Part shown: positions 34,333 to 40,070 of the stretch, piece after piece
Position numbering within the stretch: position 1 is the stretch's first letter
How the letters are laid out: the number at the start of each line of letters is the position of its first letter
DNA from: an uncultured Pelagibacteraceae bacterium
GTDB taxonomy: Bacteria; Pseudomonadota; Alphaproteobacteria; Pelagibacterales; Pelagibacteraceae
Assembly (NCBI GenBank): GCA_902617895.1
Contig: CACMYJ010000001.1
Location: forward strand, 40,001-104,000
Reading direction: 5' to 3'
Length of the DNA: 64,000 nt
Made by a program: the position numbers and the translations under genes
The notes under the pieces: model-generated
Databases searched by the model: none
What the model was told of the DNA's origin: nothing
What the model saw: only the letters and a program-made list of their open reading frames with translations

Positions 34333-34617
34333 TTGTCAGTCGTAAAATCAGACTTAATTAAGGAACTTGCTAAAAATTATCCAAACTTTTTAAAAAAAGA
34401 TTTGATCAAACTATTTGATATTACCCTTTATGAAATGAAAGATGCTTTAAAAAGGGGAGAGAGAGTAGAACTTAGAGATCTATTTACAATAGAACCAAGA
34501 ATTCAAAAGGCAAGAATATCTAGAAATCCTAAAACAAATGAAAATGTAAATACACCAGAAAAAAAAACAATTCTTTTTAAAATGTCTAAAAAATGGACAA
34601 ACAAAGTAAATGAATAA
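34333..34617 (+). CDS. ihfB: Integration host factor beta-type DNA-bending protein
   Basis: The protein has 94 residues, starting with TTG three bases after rpsA. It belongs to the HU/IHF family: a helical N-terminus (KSDLIKELAKNYPNFLKKDLIKLFDITLYEMKDALKRGERVELRD) and the beta-arm with the Pro-containing tip (ARISRNPKTNENVNTPEKKTILFKMSK). IHF bends DNA sharply at specific sites. The position right after rpsA is the classic ihfB locus. The GFGxF motif usually found at the saddle reads DLFTI here. Confidence 0.9.
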   Translation: MSVVKSDLIKELAKNYPNFLKKDLIKLFDITLYEMKDALKRGERVELRDLFTIEPRIQKARISRNPKTNENVNTPEKKTILFKMSKKWTNKVNE

Positions 34618-35281
34618 AAAAAAAATTTTTGTTGCCTGCGATAGTATTAATATTAGTAAAATTAAAGAGATAATTAGAAAAACTGAAAATTCGAAGTTAG
34701 AAGTTGGTTATAAATTTGGATTAGAGTTTTTAAATTCAAAAGACGGAAGAAAATTTATATCAAAATTAAAAAATAAGATTATCTTTGGAGATTATAAATT
34801 TGCAGATATACCAAATACTTGTGCATCAGCGGTCAAAGCTGTGAAAGATTTAAACTTTAACTATTTAACGATTCATATAAGTTCAGGTTTAGAGGCGCTT
34901 AAAGCAGTTAAAAAAGTTTCAGGAAAAACAAAAATAATTGGTGTTACAATACTTACATCTCTCGACAATAAATCTCTAAAGCAAATTGGATATAGCAAAG
35001 AAGTAAAAAAAATAGTTCTTGAGCAAGCTAAGTTAGCTAATAAAGCAAATCTGGATGCAATTGTATGTAGTCCTAATGAAGTAAATCTTGTTAAGAAAGT
35101 ATTTAAAAAAGAAATTATAACCCCAGGAATTAGATTTAATTCTAAAGAGAATGACCAAAAAAGAATCCAAACACCAAAACAAGCTTACAAAAATGGAAGT
35201 GACTGGTTAGTAATTGGAAGACCAATTACAAAAGGGAATATTAATAATAATATAAAAAATTTAATTAATCATTTGAAATAA
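34610..35281 (+). CDS. pyrF: Orotidine 5'-phosphate decarboxylase
   Basis: This 223-residue TIM-barrel enzyme makes UMP, the last step of pyrimidine synthesis. The catalytic Asp-Lys-Asp array is present: VACDS near residue 10, then DYKFADIPNT (canonical DLKxHDIPNT). Other family blocks are LTIHISSG, VTILTSL, VCSPNEV, TPGIRF and the phosphate site VIGRPIT. The start overlaps ihfB by eight bases, and trpF begins at its stop codon (TAATG). Confidence 0.94.
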   Translation: MNKKKIFVACDSINISKIKEIIRKTENSKLEVGYKFGLEFLNSKDGRKFISKLKNKIIFGDYKFADIPNTCASAVKAVKDLNFNYLTIHISSGLEALKAVKKVSGKTKIIGVTILTSLDNKSLKQIGYSKEVKKIVLEQAKLANKANLDAIVCSPNEVNLVKKVFKKEIITPGIRFNSKENDQKRIQTPKQAYKNGSDWLVIGRPITKGNINNNIKNLINHLK

Positions 35282-35904
35282 TGGTCAAAGGAATAAAAAT
35301 TTGTGGGATCTCTGATCTTGAAACTTTAAGATATATTTTAAATCATCAATTTCCACCAAAATTTGTAGGTTTCATATGTAATTATAAAAAAAGTAAAAGG
35401 TATGTTGAATATGAGAAATTAAAAGATTTAATTAATATAAAAAAAAATGACACAAGTTTTGTATCTGTGCTTGTTAATCCTGATGACAAAATCTTAGAAA
35501 AAATTAAGGAATTAAATTTTGATTATTATCAATTGTATGATGTGAGTCCTGAAAGAACAAAAACAATAAAAGAAAAATATAATATTAAAATTATTACCGC
35601 ATTAACAATAAATGCGCAAAAAGATGTTGATATATATAGCAATTATAATGAAATTTCAGACTTAATTCTTTTTGATGGAAAAGGCTACGAAAAGTCAATC
35701 GGATTTAATCATGAATTATTAAATTTTGTACCTGATTCACTAAATAAAATGATTGCTGGAAATATAAAAATAGAAGATATTCCTAATTTCAAAAATAGAG
35801 ACTGCTTTATTGATCTAAGTGGTTCTTTAGAAAATGAAGAAGGAAAAAAAGATTTAAAAAAAATAAATAAATTATTAAATTTAGCAATTAAAAATGAAAC
35901 TTAA
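35281..35904 (+). CDS. trpF: TrpF-like phosphoribosylanthranilate isomerase, divergent
   Basis: The protein has 207 residues of the small TrpF barrel, which rearranges phosphoribosylanthranilate in tryptophan synthesis. It keeps the Cys base region (IKICGISD), the phosphate-linked KSKRYV, VLVNPD, and an Asp in LFDGKG that may serve as acid. Several signature elements are changed: QLHG reads QLYD, the GGTGxxFDW block after the acid Asp is replaced by GYEKSIGFNHEL, and the VDVSSGVE end is IDLSGSLENEEGKKD. Position between pyrF and trpB is canonical. Whether it still acts on phosphoribosylanthranilate is open. Confidence 0.82.
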   Translation: MVKGIKICGISDLETLRYILNHQFPPKFVGFICNYKKSKRYVEYEKLKDLINIKKNDTSFVSVLVNPDDKILEKIKELNFDYYQLYDVSPERTKTIKEKYNIKIITALTINAQKDVDIYSNYNEISDLILFDGKGYEKSIGFNHELLNFVPDSLNKMIAGNIKIEDIPNFKNRDCFIDLSGSLENEEGKKDLKKINKLLNLAIKNET

Positions 35905-37138
35905 AAAAGGAATACCTGTTATTGATCAAGGGGATAAACTTGGTTTCTGGGGTGGAAAATTTGGTGGTAATTTTGTGCCTGAAACACTTAAGAAACCTAT
36001 AGAAGATCTTGAAATACAATTTAATAGATTAAAAAACAACAAAAACTTTATAAAAGAAAGAGACAGATATTTTAGAAATTGGATTGGAACACCTACAAGA
36101 TTTATCAAATTAAATAATTTAACAAAACATGTTGGTGGAGCTCAGATTTGGTCTAAGGTTGTTTCTGATGCTAACGGAGGAGCTCACAAAATATATAATG
36201 CAACTGTTCATTGTTTATTGGCCAAAAGGTCTGGAAAAAAAGTTATTATCGGTGACACAGGAGCTGGATATGCTGGAAAAATGTTAAGTATGGCCGCTAA
36301 AAAATTTGGTTTGAAATGTAAAATTTTTATGGGTGCAAAGGATATTAAAAGACAACAGCCCAATGTCAAAGCAATGAAAAAAAATGGTGCAGATGTAATT
36401 CCTGTATATTCAGGAAGTCAAACATTAGTAGATGCTGTATCTGAATGTATGAGATATTGGGTTGCTAATTGTGATACTACCGCAATGTGTGTAGGTAGCA
36501 CTGTAGGACCTGCAATTTTTGTTCGTATATGCGGATGGAGCACTAGCCAAATCTCTAGAGAACTTAAAGCTCAATTAGTTAATGAATTTGGTGACATCCC
36601 TAAAAAACTTAAATTGTATAATTGTGTAGGAGGAGGTTCATCAAGTTTTGGTTTTTGGAATGAATTTATAGATTATGATAAAAAACAAGTTGAGTTTATT
36701 GGAGTAGAAGCGGGAGGACCAGCCAAAAGCAACAGACACGCTGCTCCCTTAACTTATGGTTCGAAAATCGGTATACTTCATGGTGCAGCTCAATACGTAA
36801 ATCAAAATAGTGATGGTCAAATTGAAGAAACTGAGTCAATATCTGCAGGTCTAGATTATCCTGGCATTTCACCACTACATTGCTTTTTAAAAGATACCAA
36901 GCGTGCAAGGTATACGGCGGCCAGTGATGAGGAAGCTTTAAAAGCTTACCAAATAGTAACAAAATATGAAAGTTTAAGACCATCACTCGAACCCAGTCAT
37001 GCATTCTCAGTGGCGATTAAAGAAGCAAAAAAATTGAGCAAAGATACAATAGTAATTATTAATAGTTGTGGAGATGCATACAAGGACCGTGGAATTTTAG
37101 AAAAAAAGTTGGGAAAGAAATATGTTAAATCCAATTAG
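35894..37138 (+). CDS. trpB: Tryptophan synthase beta-like protein with altered active-site motifs
   Basis: This 414-residue PLP enzyme of fold type II lies in the usual trpF-trpB-trpA order. It has the family start GKFGGNFVPETL, the PLP lysine K99 (GGAHKIYN), GLKCKIFMGAKD, the phosphate loop CVGGGSS, HGAAQYV and SISAGLDYPG. Compared with Salmonella TrpB, the catalytic Glu109 is Asp121 (GDTGAGYAG for AETGAGQHG), the KRED block is KVVS, GPHPYP is GPAIFV (205-210), Asn236 is Ser250, the interface Lys167 is Val179 and Ser377 is Cys392. The frame is intact. It could be a slow or specialised tryptophan synthase or another beta-replacement enzyme. It is not the TrpB2 type by its motifs. Confidence 0.85.
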   Translation: MKLKKGIPVIDQGDKLGFWGGKFGGNFVPETLKKPIEDLEIQFNRLKNNKNFIKERDRYFRNWIGTPTRFIKLNNLTKHVGGAQIWSKVVSDANGGAHKIYNATVHCLLAKRSGKKVIIGDTGAGYAGKMLSMAAKKFGLKCKIFMGAKDIKRQQPNVKAMKKNGADVIPVYSGSQTLVDAVSECMRYWVANCDTTAMCVGSTVGPAIFVRICGWSTSQISRELKAQLVNEFGDIPKKLKLYNCVGGGSSSFGFWNEFIDYDKKQVEFIGVEAGGPAKSNRHAAPLTYGSKIGILHGAAQYVNQNSDGQIEETESISAGLDYPGISPLHCFLKDTKRARYTAASDEEALKAYQIVTKYESLRPSLEPSHAFSVAIKEAKKLSKDTIVIINSCGDAYKDRGILEKKLGKKYVKSN

Positions 37139-37922
37139 CCTTGCATTTAAAAACGCAAAAAAAAAGAAGAGACCAGCCTTACTTACTTACACTGTTGCTG
37201 GCGATAGCTCAAAGAAGCAATCTTTAGAGATATTAAAAGCAATTTCAAATTATGCTGATATTTTAGAAGTAGGCGTACCTCATAACACTCCTGTTGCAGA
37301 TGGAGGCCAAATTCAAACTAGTGCATATAGAGCAATTAAAAATGGTATAAAGATGAATGATATTTTTAAAATTGTTAGCGATTTTAAAAAAACTAAAAAT
37401 TCAAAACCAGTAATATTGATGGGTTATTACAATATGATTTATCAATATGGTGAAAATAATTTTTTAAAAAAATGTAAAAAATCAGAAGTTAATGGTTTAA
37501 TAGTAGTTGATTTGCCATGGCCAGAAAATAAAATTTTTTCAAAGAAATGTAAAAAGAATGAAATTAATTTTATCCAACTATTGTCTCCTACAACTTCAAA
37601 TAAAAGACTTAAAAGTATTACAAAAGACTCTCATGATATGATTTATTATATAAGTATGTTATCTACTACGGGTGGAAAGCTAAAAGTTTCTCCCAAAAAA
37701 ATACTAGCTAATTATAATAAGATTAAAAAAATAAGTCCTAAAAAAAATTGTGTTATTGGTTTTGGGATTACTGAAAAAACTATTTCAAAGTTTAAAAATA
37801 CAGATGGACTTGTTGTTGGTAGTCAAATTTGCAAAGAAATTACTAGAAGTTTAAACAATAGACAAAATCCTGTCATAAATGTAAGTAAGATGGTTAATAA
37901 ACTTAGAAAAAAAATATCATGA
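37122..37922 (+). CDS. trpA: Tryptophan synthase alpha-like protein with altered loop
   Basis: The 266-residue TIM barrel would split indole-3-glycerol phosphate to indole. Both catalytic acids are kept (Glu49 and Asp60, same numbers as in Salmonella), as are GYYN, the phosphate-binding GFGI and VVGSQI. The strongly conserved loop PFSDPxADGPxIQ reads PHNTPVADGGQIQ (53-65), so Phe54, Ser55, Asp56 and Pro62 are all changed. The SVTGVTG loop is SMLSTTGGK. Asp56 normally bonds with Lys167 of TrpB, which is also lost here. It overlaps trpB by 17 bases and accD by four. Confidence 0.85.
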   Translation: MLNPISLAFKNAKKKKRPALLTYTVAGDSSKKQSLEILKAISNYADILEVGVPHNTPVADGGQIQTSAYRAIKNGIKMNDIFKIVSDFKKTKNSKPVILMGYYNMIYQYGENNFLKKCKKSEVNGLIVVDLPWPENKIFSKKCKKNEINFIQLLSPTTSNKRLKSITKDSHDMIYYISMLSTTGGKLKVSPKKILANYNKIKKISPKKNCVIGFGITEKTISKFKNTDGLVVGSQICKEITRSLNNRQNPVINVSKMVNKLRKKIS

Positions 37923-38848
37923 ATTGGTTAACAAAAGCTATAAATTTTGGAGAAAAAATAAAGAAGGTGCTTAGAAAAAGACCCTCGAAAGAAGATATAG
38001 CAAACTCAGATTGGACCAGTTGTTGTAAGGGTCCATTATTAAAAAAAGATTTAGAGAATAATTTATGGGTTTGCAATCTTTGTGGAAAGCATCATAGAAT
38101 TAGTTGTAGACAAAGGTTCGATATAGTCTTTGGAAAGAATGCATACCAAATTTTAGAATCTCCAATACCTACGGAAGATCCATTAAATTGGGTTGACACA
38201 AAATCTTACAGAGACAGGCTTAAGATTGCGAGGAAAAAGACAAACCAAAATTGTGCAGTTATGATTGCAAAAGGTAAAATAAATGGAATAGAAGTAACAG
38301 CAGGCGCAATAAATTTTGATTTTATTGGAGGTTCAGTTGGAGCAGCTGAGGGAGAAGCAATAATTTATGGAGTACAACATGCAATTGATAATCAAACACC
38401 TTACTTATTTTTTCCTTGTGGAGGTGGACAAAGAATGTTCGAGTCTACAATTGCTCTAGCAAATATGACTAGAACAACACTTGCCATAAACGAGCTTAAA
38501 AATAATAATTTACCTTACATAGTATGTTTTACGGATCCTACCGCTGGTGGAATAACTGCCTCTTTTGCAATGTTAGGGGATATTCATCTTGCAGAACCTG
38601 GATGTCTAATCGCCTTTGCGGGTAAAAGAGTAATTCAAGCGACTGTTAAAGAAGAATTAAGCTCTGATTTTCAAACAGCAGAATTTGTTGAGAAACATGG
38701 CTTTGTCGACAGAGTAGTACATAGAAAAGATATACAAAAAGAAGTTGGTAAACTTCTATCGATATTACTTAGAAAAAATTCTGATATACATTTAGAAAAT
38801 TTAAATGAAACTTCAGAAACTAATATCCAAACTAGAGAAGCATCATAA
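37919..38848 (+). CDS. accD: Acetyl-CoA carboxylase carboxyltransferase subunit beta
   Basis: This 309-residue protein partners AccA. It has the N-terminal zinc-finger region, then the crotonase-like fold with FIGGSVGAAEGEA, the region CGGGQRMFE (canonical SGGARMQE), TDPTAGGITASFAMLGD and the tail AEFVEKHGFVDRVVHRK. The zinc finger is unusual: the first CxxC pair (normally CPxC) appears as adjacent C35-C36, while C52 and C55 (CNLC) are normal. The gene overlaps trpA by four bases, and the next gene, folC, starts inside its last 44 bases; this order is standard in Proteobacteria. Confidence 0.93.
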   Translation: MNWLTKAINFGEKIKKVLRKRPSKEDIANSDWTSCCKGPLLKKDLENNLWVCNLCGKHHRISCRQRFDIVFGKNAYQILESPIPTEDPLNWVDTKSYRDRLKIARKKTNQNCAVMIAKGKINGIEVTAGAINFDFIGGSVGAAEGEAIIYGVQHAIDNQTPYLFFPCGGGQRMFESTIALANMTRTTLAINELKNNNLPYIVCFTDPTAGGITASFAMLGDIHLAEPGCLIAFAGKRVIQATVKEELSSDFQTAEFVEKHGFVDRVVHRKDIQKEVGKLLSILLRKNSDIHLENLNETSETNIQTREAS

Positions 38849-40070
38849 AAAAAAACTAGACTTATCTTTAGGAAGAACATTTAATCTACTAAAAAAACTG
38901 GGAAATCCACAAGATAAATTAAAAAATGTAGTCACCGTTGTTGGAACTAATGCAAAAGCAAGCATGTGCTATAGTCTTAAATCAATACTAAACCAATGTG
39001 GGTACAAAACTAATCTTTACACTTCTCCGCACCTTCTCTCTTATACAGAAAGATACGTTTTTGAAGATAAGGAGATCAATGAAGATAATTTAATAGAATT
39101 ACTGATTGATGTTGAAAAAACTTTAGGGGATGACAATGCAACATTATTTGAAATTTTAACATGTGCATTTATTAAAAATGCTGAAAATTTTAAAGATAAT
39201 ATTAATATTATAGAAGCAGGATTATTTCATCAATTTGATAGTACAAATGTATTTAAGGAAAATTTAATGACGCTTATTGGTGTCATTCACAATGATCACT
39301 TTCAATGGCTTGAAAATAAATCAATTGAAGGGGTAATATATGAAAAAACAGCTAAGCTTTTAAACTCAAATATATTTATTAATAAACAAGTAAATAATGA
39401 AATAAGAGATAAAATAGCAAATTCATTAGAAAAAAATACTTCTAACAAATATTTCTTTGGTAAAGATTTTAATATTGCAAGATCTGAAAATGGATTTATT
39501 CAATATCAAGATCAGTTAGGAGAATTAGTATTACCTGAACCAAGCATTCTTGGAGACCATCAGCTTTATAATATTAGTACCTCAATAGCTGCATCAAGAA
39601 AAATTTTTAATATTAAAGATGAACATATTAAAAATGGTGTAAAAAATATTTCATTAAAAGCAAGACTAGAAGAAATAAAATCTGGTAAATTAAAAGATAT
39701 TGCAGGTAATAATAAACTAATAATAGATGGTGGTCACAACATTAGCGCAAGTTTTTCTATCGCTAATTGGATTAAAAATCAAAGTGAAGAAGTAAATCTT
39801 ATCTTAGGTATGATGAAAGATAAAGAACATATAGAATTTGTAAAAGCTTTTGAAAATATAGTAAATTCAATTACCTTAATTGATATTCCTAATCAGAATG
39901 GTGCAATTTCAAAGGAAGATTTTAGAAAAAAGTTAAATAATTTAAAATTAAATTTGAAACTTTCTAACGGTATTGAAGAAAGTATAAAATCCTTATCAAA
40001 AAATAAAAATACTATTATACTCTGCTTAGGTTCACTATATCTTGCTGGAGAAATTTTAAGCTTAAATTAG
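38805..40070 (+). CDS. folC: FolC-like folylpolyglutamate/dihydrofolate synthase
   Basis: The 421-residue protein matches the Mur-ligase-like FolC family, which adds glutamate to dihydropteroate and to folates. The N-terminus (KKKLDLSLGRTFNLLKKLGNP) is characteristic and supports the start inside accD, since no other start codon is available before it. The ATP loop reads GTNAKAS instead of GTNGKGS, and the GLGGRLDATN block reads GLFHQFDSTN. LYTSPHLLSYTER, NDH and the C-terminal DGGHN are kept. These changes sit at nucleotide/metal-binding positions, so the activity may be modified, but no second folC is visible here. It converges on trxA with a four-base overlap. Confidence 0.88.
   Translation: MKLQKLISKLEKHHKKKLDLSLGRTFNLLKKLGNPQDKLKNVVTVVGTNAKASMCYSLKSILNQCGYKTNLYTSPHLLSYTERYVFEDKEINEDNLIELLIDVEKTLGDDNATLFEILTCAFIKNAENFKDNINIIEAGLFHQFDSTNVFKENLMTLIGVIHNDHFQWLENKSIEGVIYEKTAKLLNSNIFINKQVNNEIRDKIANSLEKNTSNKYFFGKDFNIARSENGFIQYQDQLGELVLPEPSILGDHQLYNISTSIAASRKIFNIKDEHIKNGVKNISLKARLEEIKSGKLKDIAGNNKLIIDGGHNISASFSIANWIKNQSEEVNLILGMMKDKEHIEFVKAFENIVNSITLIDIPNQNGAISKEDFRKKLNNLKLNLKLSNGIEESIKSLSKNKNTIILCLGSLYLAGEILSLN

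Follow-up and report, generated by a model that had tools for sequence, protein, structure and literature searches.

Tryptophan synthase serves as a standard example of catalysis, channelling, and allostery. To our knowledge, Glu109 of its β-subunit (TrpB) and the contact of this subunit with the α-subunit (TrpA) are usually taken as near-universal. Residues with established roles include positions 87, 167, 232–236, and 377 of TrpB and position 56 of TrpA (Salmonella numbering here and below), and substitution of Glu109 by Asp alters substrate use of the Salmonella enzyme. The closest described systems are the TrpB1 proteins of Salmonella, E. coli, and Pyrococcus furiosus; TrpB2 (TIGR01415), a distant relative with the same pyridoxal 5′-phosphate (PLP) fold; plTrpB from Pelodictyon luteolum, an extant TrpB1 with unusual α–β communication and high stand-alone activity (PMC11917138); and a distinct trpB cluster of SAR11 bacteria that has been in print since 2008 (Kagan et al., PMC2395257). 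What is accessible of the latter report presents this cluster in a distance tree only, and contains no residues, TrpA pairing, further types, or exchange. Here we describe trpB and trpA (trpBA) in a 64,000-nucleotide stretch of SAR11 DNA, the window, which covers positions 40,001 to 104,000 of contig CACMYJ010000001.1 from an uncultured Pelagibacteraceae bacterium (GCA_902617895.1). This pair is of a type that we call type I, by description the same cluster as that of Kagan et al., and at least three further, deeply different trpBA types occupy the same locus in other SAR11 genomes. Judged from sequence, type-I trpBA most likely encodes a functional tryptophan synthase in which the β-site and the α–β contact have been rebuilt. 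That this holds and that matched types are also exchanged as a unit between SAR11 lineages is a combined reading that we consider quite probable.

The β-subunit is encoded by trpB (35894..37138, + strand). The protein shares with TrpB1 enzymes the fold, the PLP lysine (Lys99 in the window, Lys87 in Salmonella), the glycine-rich phosphate loop (GGGS), the Arg141–Asp305 pair, and an adjacent trpA, and it is 38% identical to E. coli TrpB. The differences are Glu109Asp (Asp121 in the window), Gln114Tyr, His115Ala, Lys167Val (Val179), Asn236Ser (Ser250), Arg379Asp, and the replacement of KRED by KVVS and of GPHPYP by GPAIFV. A sequence-only reading of this DNA had listed the changes at 109, KRED, GPHPYP, 236, and 167, and all of them are present in the sequence. 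The same reading counted Ser377Cys (Cys392) as unusual; the cysteine is there, but we rejected it as a signal since 45 of 56 comparison TrpB sequences carry it. Position 109 remains a carboxylate. In the closed Salmonella enzyme, Gln114 bonds to Asn145 and Arg148 (PMC9512447); the window TrpB retains Asn145 and has Ala in place of Arg148. In contrast to plTrpB, the key residues of which are described as distal from the active site (PMC11917138), the alterations of type I lie at the active site and at the α-contact. TrpB2 is different again: the window TrpB scores 98.6 bits against TIGR01415, which has a cut-off of 518.85.

These residues are not peculiar to the window. Alignment with SAR11 homologues, a check suggested in the sequence-only reading together with a TrpB tree, revealed the altered residues as common property: Asp109, Ser236, and Val167 occur together, and never apart, in 156 of 181 distinct SAR11 TrpB sequences, a count made without type labels. 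The remaining 25, two of which are TrpB2-like, have Glu109 and Asn236. All 56 comparison sequences (the 55 top-scoring loci from the same phylum plus E. coli, hence not a random draw) contain Glu109, Asn236, and Lys167. Since the type I label is defined by Asp-Thr at positions 109–110, Asp109 in 156/156 type-I sequences is true by definition. Lys87, Arg141, and Asp305 are present in all 156 of them as well, and Ala115 and Asp379 in 150 each.

The α-subunit (trpA, 37122..37922, + strand; TIGR00262 204.9 bits, cut-off 102.35) has changed on its side of the interface. Its loop 2 reads PHNTPVADGG, with Thr in place of Asp56 and with the catalytic residues Glu49 and Asp60 intact. The earlier description of this loop was correct except for the claim that only these two residues are kept: Pro53, Pro57, Ala59, Gly61, Tyr175, Thr183, Gly184, and Gly-Phe-Gly 211–213 are also conserved. 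As that reading had noticed, TrpA Asp56 and TrpB Lys167 are both lost, the former from loop 2 and the latter from the COMM domain. The Lys167–Asp56 contact is absent from type I altogether, with Val167 accompanied by Thr, Ala, or Cys56 in 156/156 pairs. Among the distinct pairs examined, all from loci in which both TrpA and TrpB are readable, each of the 63 with Lys or Arg at TrpB 167 has Asp or Glu at TrpA 56 (46 of the 63 are comparison pairs), and each of the 162 with Val or Leu at 167 has Thr, Ala, or Cys at 56. In all 225 pairs, the two residues are therefore either both retained or both lost.

Alternatively, such residues might be the product of unremarkable drift within the lineage, or of gene decay in a genome that has been streamlined. 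Consistent with this explanation, trpF, pyrF, and folC of SAR11 are fast-evolving too, and trpB or trpA is split over two frames in a few genomes. However, the ratio of nonsynonymous to synonymous substitution rates (dN/dS) of trpB is 0.013–0.063 in nine pairs (four of type I, two of type IV, and one each of type III, type V, and canonical), compared to 0.028 in the canonical pair. Furthermore, 59 canonical TrpB sequences share 148 invariant sites; type I keeps 82 of these, and at 34 a different residue is fixed in 90% or more of the 154 type-I sequences compared. Drift or decay is thus highly improbable. The earlier proposal of co-evolution instead of decay is supported by the joint loss of Lys167 and Asp56, by the SAR11-wide occurrence of the residues, and by the low dN/dS.

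Some SAR11 genomes carry interrupted genes. A frame change near profile position 105 interrupts trpB in G1103 and G1126 (loci L330 and L331, genus g459), and in L330 it lies within the GDT-GAG loop; the trpB genes of G1110 and G1035 are also in two frames. These splits may be real damage or sequencing error. In the single-contig genome G952 (1,284,727 bases), presumably that of isolate IMCC9063, trpA (L393) occupies two overlapping frames of 96 and 177 codons, possibly because a run of A was misread in sequencing. No TrpB1-level match was detected in G875, G897, G960, and G902, which are rated 94–96% complete; the cells concerned could be auxotrophic for tryptophan, or assembly may break down at this variable locus.

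An AlphaFold model of type-I TrpB (predicted local distance difference test, pLDDT, 91.4) finds its best Foldseek matches among TrpB structures, with template modelling (TM) scores of about 0.9. In VIA-align, the Z-score was 61.9 for an engineered Pyrococcus TrpB and 61.7 for the natural one (5dw0), the window model superimposing with 1.1 Å over 385 residues; all 50 entries listed are TrpB or TrpB-derived (Z 57.5–61.9). The TrpA model is of similar quality (pLDDT 91.6). A common fold by itself does not show function.

Gene content bears on the question as to what these enzymes make. The genome from which the window derives contains trpC, trpD, and trpG on contig C15 together with a trpE cut by the contig end. 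These are the genes that the sequence-only reading had proposed to look for, and with trpFBA they provide a gene for every pathway step. A second trpB had to be looked for as well. The own genome shows a single TrpB match, which at 83.7% completeness is weak evidence taken alone. In 11 of 11 single-contig SAR11 genomes tested there is one TrpB1-type gene, which is type I in ten (G845, G846, G847, G849, G397, G307, G198, G475, G844, and G952) and type IV in G012. Genome G845 (one contig, 1,308,759 bases), which we take to be that of P. ubique HTCC1062, encodes a type-I TrpB with the same key residues and 75.7% identity to the window protein. Apart from TrpB, its PALP-domain proteins are cysteine synthase A (521.2 bits), diaminopropionate ammonia-lyase (438.5 bits), and threonine synthase (255 bits). 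As these three exceed the cut-offs for different enzymes, we rejected a second trpB in G845. The other single-contig genomes contain three to four PALP matches, distinguished by length only. Kagan et al. assign to HTCC1062 one trpB and split trpEGDC and trpFBA operons, and state that this trpB must be functional (PMC2395257). A defined medium in which HTCC1062 has been grown lists as its additions vitamins, glycine, glycine betaine, pyruvate, and dimethylsulfoniopropionate, and the passages on this medium do not mention tryptophan (PMC5069961). The single TrpB1 gene of G845, the statement by Kagan et al., and the defined medium together make tryptophan synthesis by type I likely.

The sequence-only reading had left two options, an unusual tryptophan synthase or another PLP-dependent β-replacement reaction. 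The former is supported by purifying selection, by the SAR11-wide residues, and by the joint loss at positions 167 and 56. The latter, that the cluster has left tryptophan synthesis for a different β-replacement or elimination, we consider very unlikely. It would agree with the altered indole- and serine-site residues in 156 of the 181 SAR11 sequences, with the replacement of Gln114 and His115, with Ala in place of Arg148 (a partner of Gln114 in Salmonella), and with the effect of Asp109 on substrate use in Salmonella, but it has to account for pathway genes, for the presence of a single TrpB1-type gene in every one of 11 single-contig genomes, for a medium that lists no tryptophan, for an intact catalytic pair in TrpA, and for a model with TrpB structures as best matches.

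The diversity of trpBA extends beyond type I, and beyond what the sequence-only reading had seen. Between the common flanks pyrF-trpF and accD-folC, other SAR11 genomes contain different pairs: canonical trpBA in G063, G890, and G896; type III in G074, G882, and G886; type IV for example in the single-contig genome G012; and type V for example in G059, G017, G879, and G1137. A type-IV query found matches in 362 of 397 genomes of an order-wide sample. E-value bands assign nine of these to type IV, three to type III, and three to the canonical group, which leaves 347 that belong to type I or type V or are partial or TrpB2 matches, part of them read individually. In the TrpB tree, types III and IV together, type I, and type V form separate, fully supported branches with stems of 4.28 (V) and 1.46 (I) changes per site. 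Sequences initially labelled VI (L153/L236, L154) fall within the type-I clade. For the canonical group, TrpB2 rows were dropped from the counts, and L278 and L249 were counted with class IV. In the residue counts, two of five sequences labelled canonical (L338, L339) are TrpB2-like.

An origin of these types outside SAR11 is not supported by our searches, which covered sampled genomes of the same phylum, viral contigs, and phage records. In 385 genomes of the class, a type-I profile reached at least 800 bits in five (own genome included), all from the family of the window; every other match scored at most 405 bits, and 98 genomes gave no match at 1e-20. For type IV, the highest score outside the order was 397 bits (51% identity) across 398 genomes from the phylum. 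The 34 pattern matches on viral contigs included no relative, and 20 phage records with a match were all below 60% identity (38.7–43.3% in the ten listed).

The distribution of types conflicts with rpoB and with the flanking genes. On an rpoB tree of 28 genomes (from a set of 30; model LG+G4, no mixture), the types are interleaved such that at least nine label changes are required. Sister pairs with bootstrap values of 100 each carry different types: G017 (V) and G1098 (IV), G059 (V) and G049 (I), and G845 (I) and G851 (IV). Grouping of the six type-IV carriers as a clade on rpoB is rejected by the approximately unbiased (AU) test (p 1.3e-43). A tree of pyrF, accD, and folC scatters the types too.

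Two pairs of genomes illustrate this conflict. G017 (V) and G1098 (IV) have nucleotide identities of 81% in rpsA, 85% in pyrF, 68% in trpF, 54% in trpB, 57% in trpA, 91% in accD, and 86% in folC. In 150-base windows, identity is 80–88% in pyrF, 60–74% in most of trpF, and 44–62% in trpBA, before it jumps at the start of accD to 84–98% onward. The pattern is reversed for G059 and G017, both of type V: identities are 66% in rpsA, 65% in pyrF, and 57% in trpF, rise to 92% in trpB and 77% in trpA, and return to 60% in accD and 58% in folC (windows: trpB 77–97%, most of trpA 72–82%, outside 48–70%). At the protein level, the type-V TrpB of this pair is 96% identical, as compared to 35–58% for PyrF, TrpF, AccD, and FolC.

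Within family f1, correlation with rpoB identity is 0.95 for trpD, 0.95 for trpC, and 0.94 for trpG (153 pairs from 18 f1 genomes with both genes, trpD being complete at 24 loci of the 30 genomes), 0.92 for rpsA, and 0.81 for trpF, as opposed to −0.09 for trpB and −0.02 for trpA (210 pairs); as rare types were deliberately represented in the genome set, these values are contrasts between genes and not population estimates. Among pairs with at least 90% rpoB identity, trpB and trpA each fall below 40% identity in 22 of 35, and trpD in none of 33. The pairwise identities of trpB and trpA correlate with each other at 0.97.

Such conflicts could also arise if the SAR11 ancestor already possessed the types, as old paralogues or alleles, and its descendants lost different ones without any exchange. 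The presence of both type I and the III/IV clade in families f1 and f2, as well as a second TrpB-like match in some draft genomes, would fit this scenario. Yet none of the 11 single-contig genomes has two TrpB1 types, the types read occupy the same position, and type-V TrpB is 96% identical between otherwise divergent neighbourhoods; we consider this explanation quite improbable. Draft assemblies from single cells or metagenomes make up most of the genomes used, and a mixture of types might arise in them by assembly or binning error. The chance that artefacts explain the mixture is practically negligible, as single-contig genomes hold type I (ten genomes) and type IV (G012) among SAR11 flanking genes.

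Several observations weigh against a functional, exchanged type I. The window protein is a TrpB1 by descent and fold, but it lacks Glu109 and the Lys167–Asp56 contact and stays just below the equivalog cut-off of TIGR00263 (384.8 versus 392.45 bits). Type-I TrpB from G844 (395.2) and type-IV TrpB from G012 (406.6) pass this threshold, and type V from G017 (314.1) fails. The sequence-only reading would have accepted mere lineage-specific drift if relatives without another trpB shared the residues and had a demonstrably active enzyme; such relatives do share them, and no enzyme assay of SAR11 TrpBA was found in the open-licence literature. The joint loss at 167 and 56 maps to two independent events, on the stems of types I and V, and since there are only two on the TrpB tree, the case for coupling depends on these events plus the joint inheritance of trpB and trpA. 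The tree program warns of long branches, which makes the placing of types I and V unsure. The flanks accD, folC, and pyrF correlate less well with rpoB (0.69, 0.58, and 0.46 in family f1) and are partly mosaic, as would be expected if exchange tracts end within them. Finally, at least 22 draft genomes, including type-IV G1010, show two or more TrpB-like matches. Those second matches that were read individually are TrpB2-like or pieces of split genes; others, among them that of G1010, lie outside that reading, and some draft genomes may contain a second TrpB1 type.

How could a synthase of type I work and spread? We envisage that catalysis follows the standard PLP route through Lys87, and that Asp109 supplies the carboxylate next to indole and takes over the indole-stabilizing role of Glu109. 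The α–β signal would pass through other contacts, without the Asp56–Lys167 pair. Homologous recombination within the flanks would transfer each type whole from one SAR11 lineage to another. If the α–β contact is type-specific, α and β must match, and trpB and trpA would have to be replaced together. A further possibility, which we regard as rather unlikely, is that selection, either diversifying or frequency-dependent, keeps mutually incompatible, co-adapted TrpA–TrpB types at this one locus in SAR11. Variation of the enzyme would then be favoured as such, perhaps because some natural inhibitor targets the α–β contact, and the pair would be swapped whole in a cassette-like fashion.

In open-licence full texts, Kagan et al. 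is the only paper on SAR11 trpBA that came up, and we found no report on the catalytic or contact residues, the other types, or the exchange. A very abundant marine group appears to run tryptophan synthase on a different set of residues. Types I, III/IV, and V with their matched α-loops are natural solutions that are open to direct test. Because the matched pair appears to be swapped in place while trpD, trpC, and trpG track rpoB, the question of why one core pair swaps and the others do not also becomes testable.

Some type-I pairs are outliers. TrpBA in L004/L235 (G067), L320 (G860), and L321 (G1099) have loops that are altered further, such as GDTGAGMAGT paired with PHNCCIGEGD and VTDTGAGYNGK paired with MAFSTPIADGG. 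These proteins are possibly intermediates.

In the window, pyrF, trpF, trpB, trpA, accD, and folC form a single run of open, overlapping reading frames on the + strand. Their coordinates confirm that trpF, trpB, and trpA are intact and overlap, as had been stated in the sequence-only reading. The nearest named match of the window TrpB (98% identity) is from an uncultured Pelagibacteraceae bacterium. The left flank of the exchanged segment is pyrF (34610..35281, +; TIGR01740 127.1 bits, cut-off 92.3), which adjoins trpF in SAR11 loci of sufficient span. On the right follow accD (37919..38848, +; TIGR00515 272.5 bits, below the cut-off of 317.45) and, as the outer flank, folC (38805..40070, +; TIGR01499 210 bits, cut-off 162.65), which keeps its equivalent position in longer SAR11 loci. 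Among rpoB-close genomes pyrF varies from 0.41 to 0.95 and accD from 0.40 (a partial gene) to 0.95, and the pyrF–folC stretch may be a recombination hot spot.

The trpF gene (35281..35904, +) encodes a divergent phosphoribosylanthranilate isomerase. Its suspected alteration is real insofar as every NCBIfam TrpF model scores below its cut-off, but the protein passes Pfam PF00697 (71.7 bits, cut-off 22.7) and retains the K-x-C-G motif, which is found in 243 of 247 TrpF sequences of the examined loci, outgroups included. As trpF tracks rpoB, we rejected TrpF as a part of the trpBA change.

Some SAR11 genomes also contain TrpB2-like genes, which lie apart from the trpFBA locus; a TrpB1 is present in some of these assemblies and missing from others. 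The TrpB2-like genes have open frames of 454–475 codons and occur in G023, G024, G020, G038, G055, G058, and G069 (L158–L164) and in G1168 and G1087. The protein encoded by L158 in G024 is a true TrpB2, which passes TIGR01415 with 624.3 bits.

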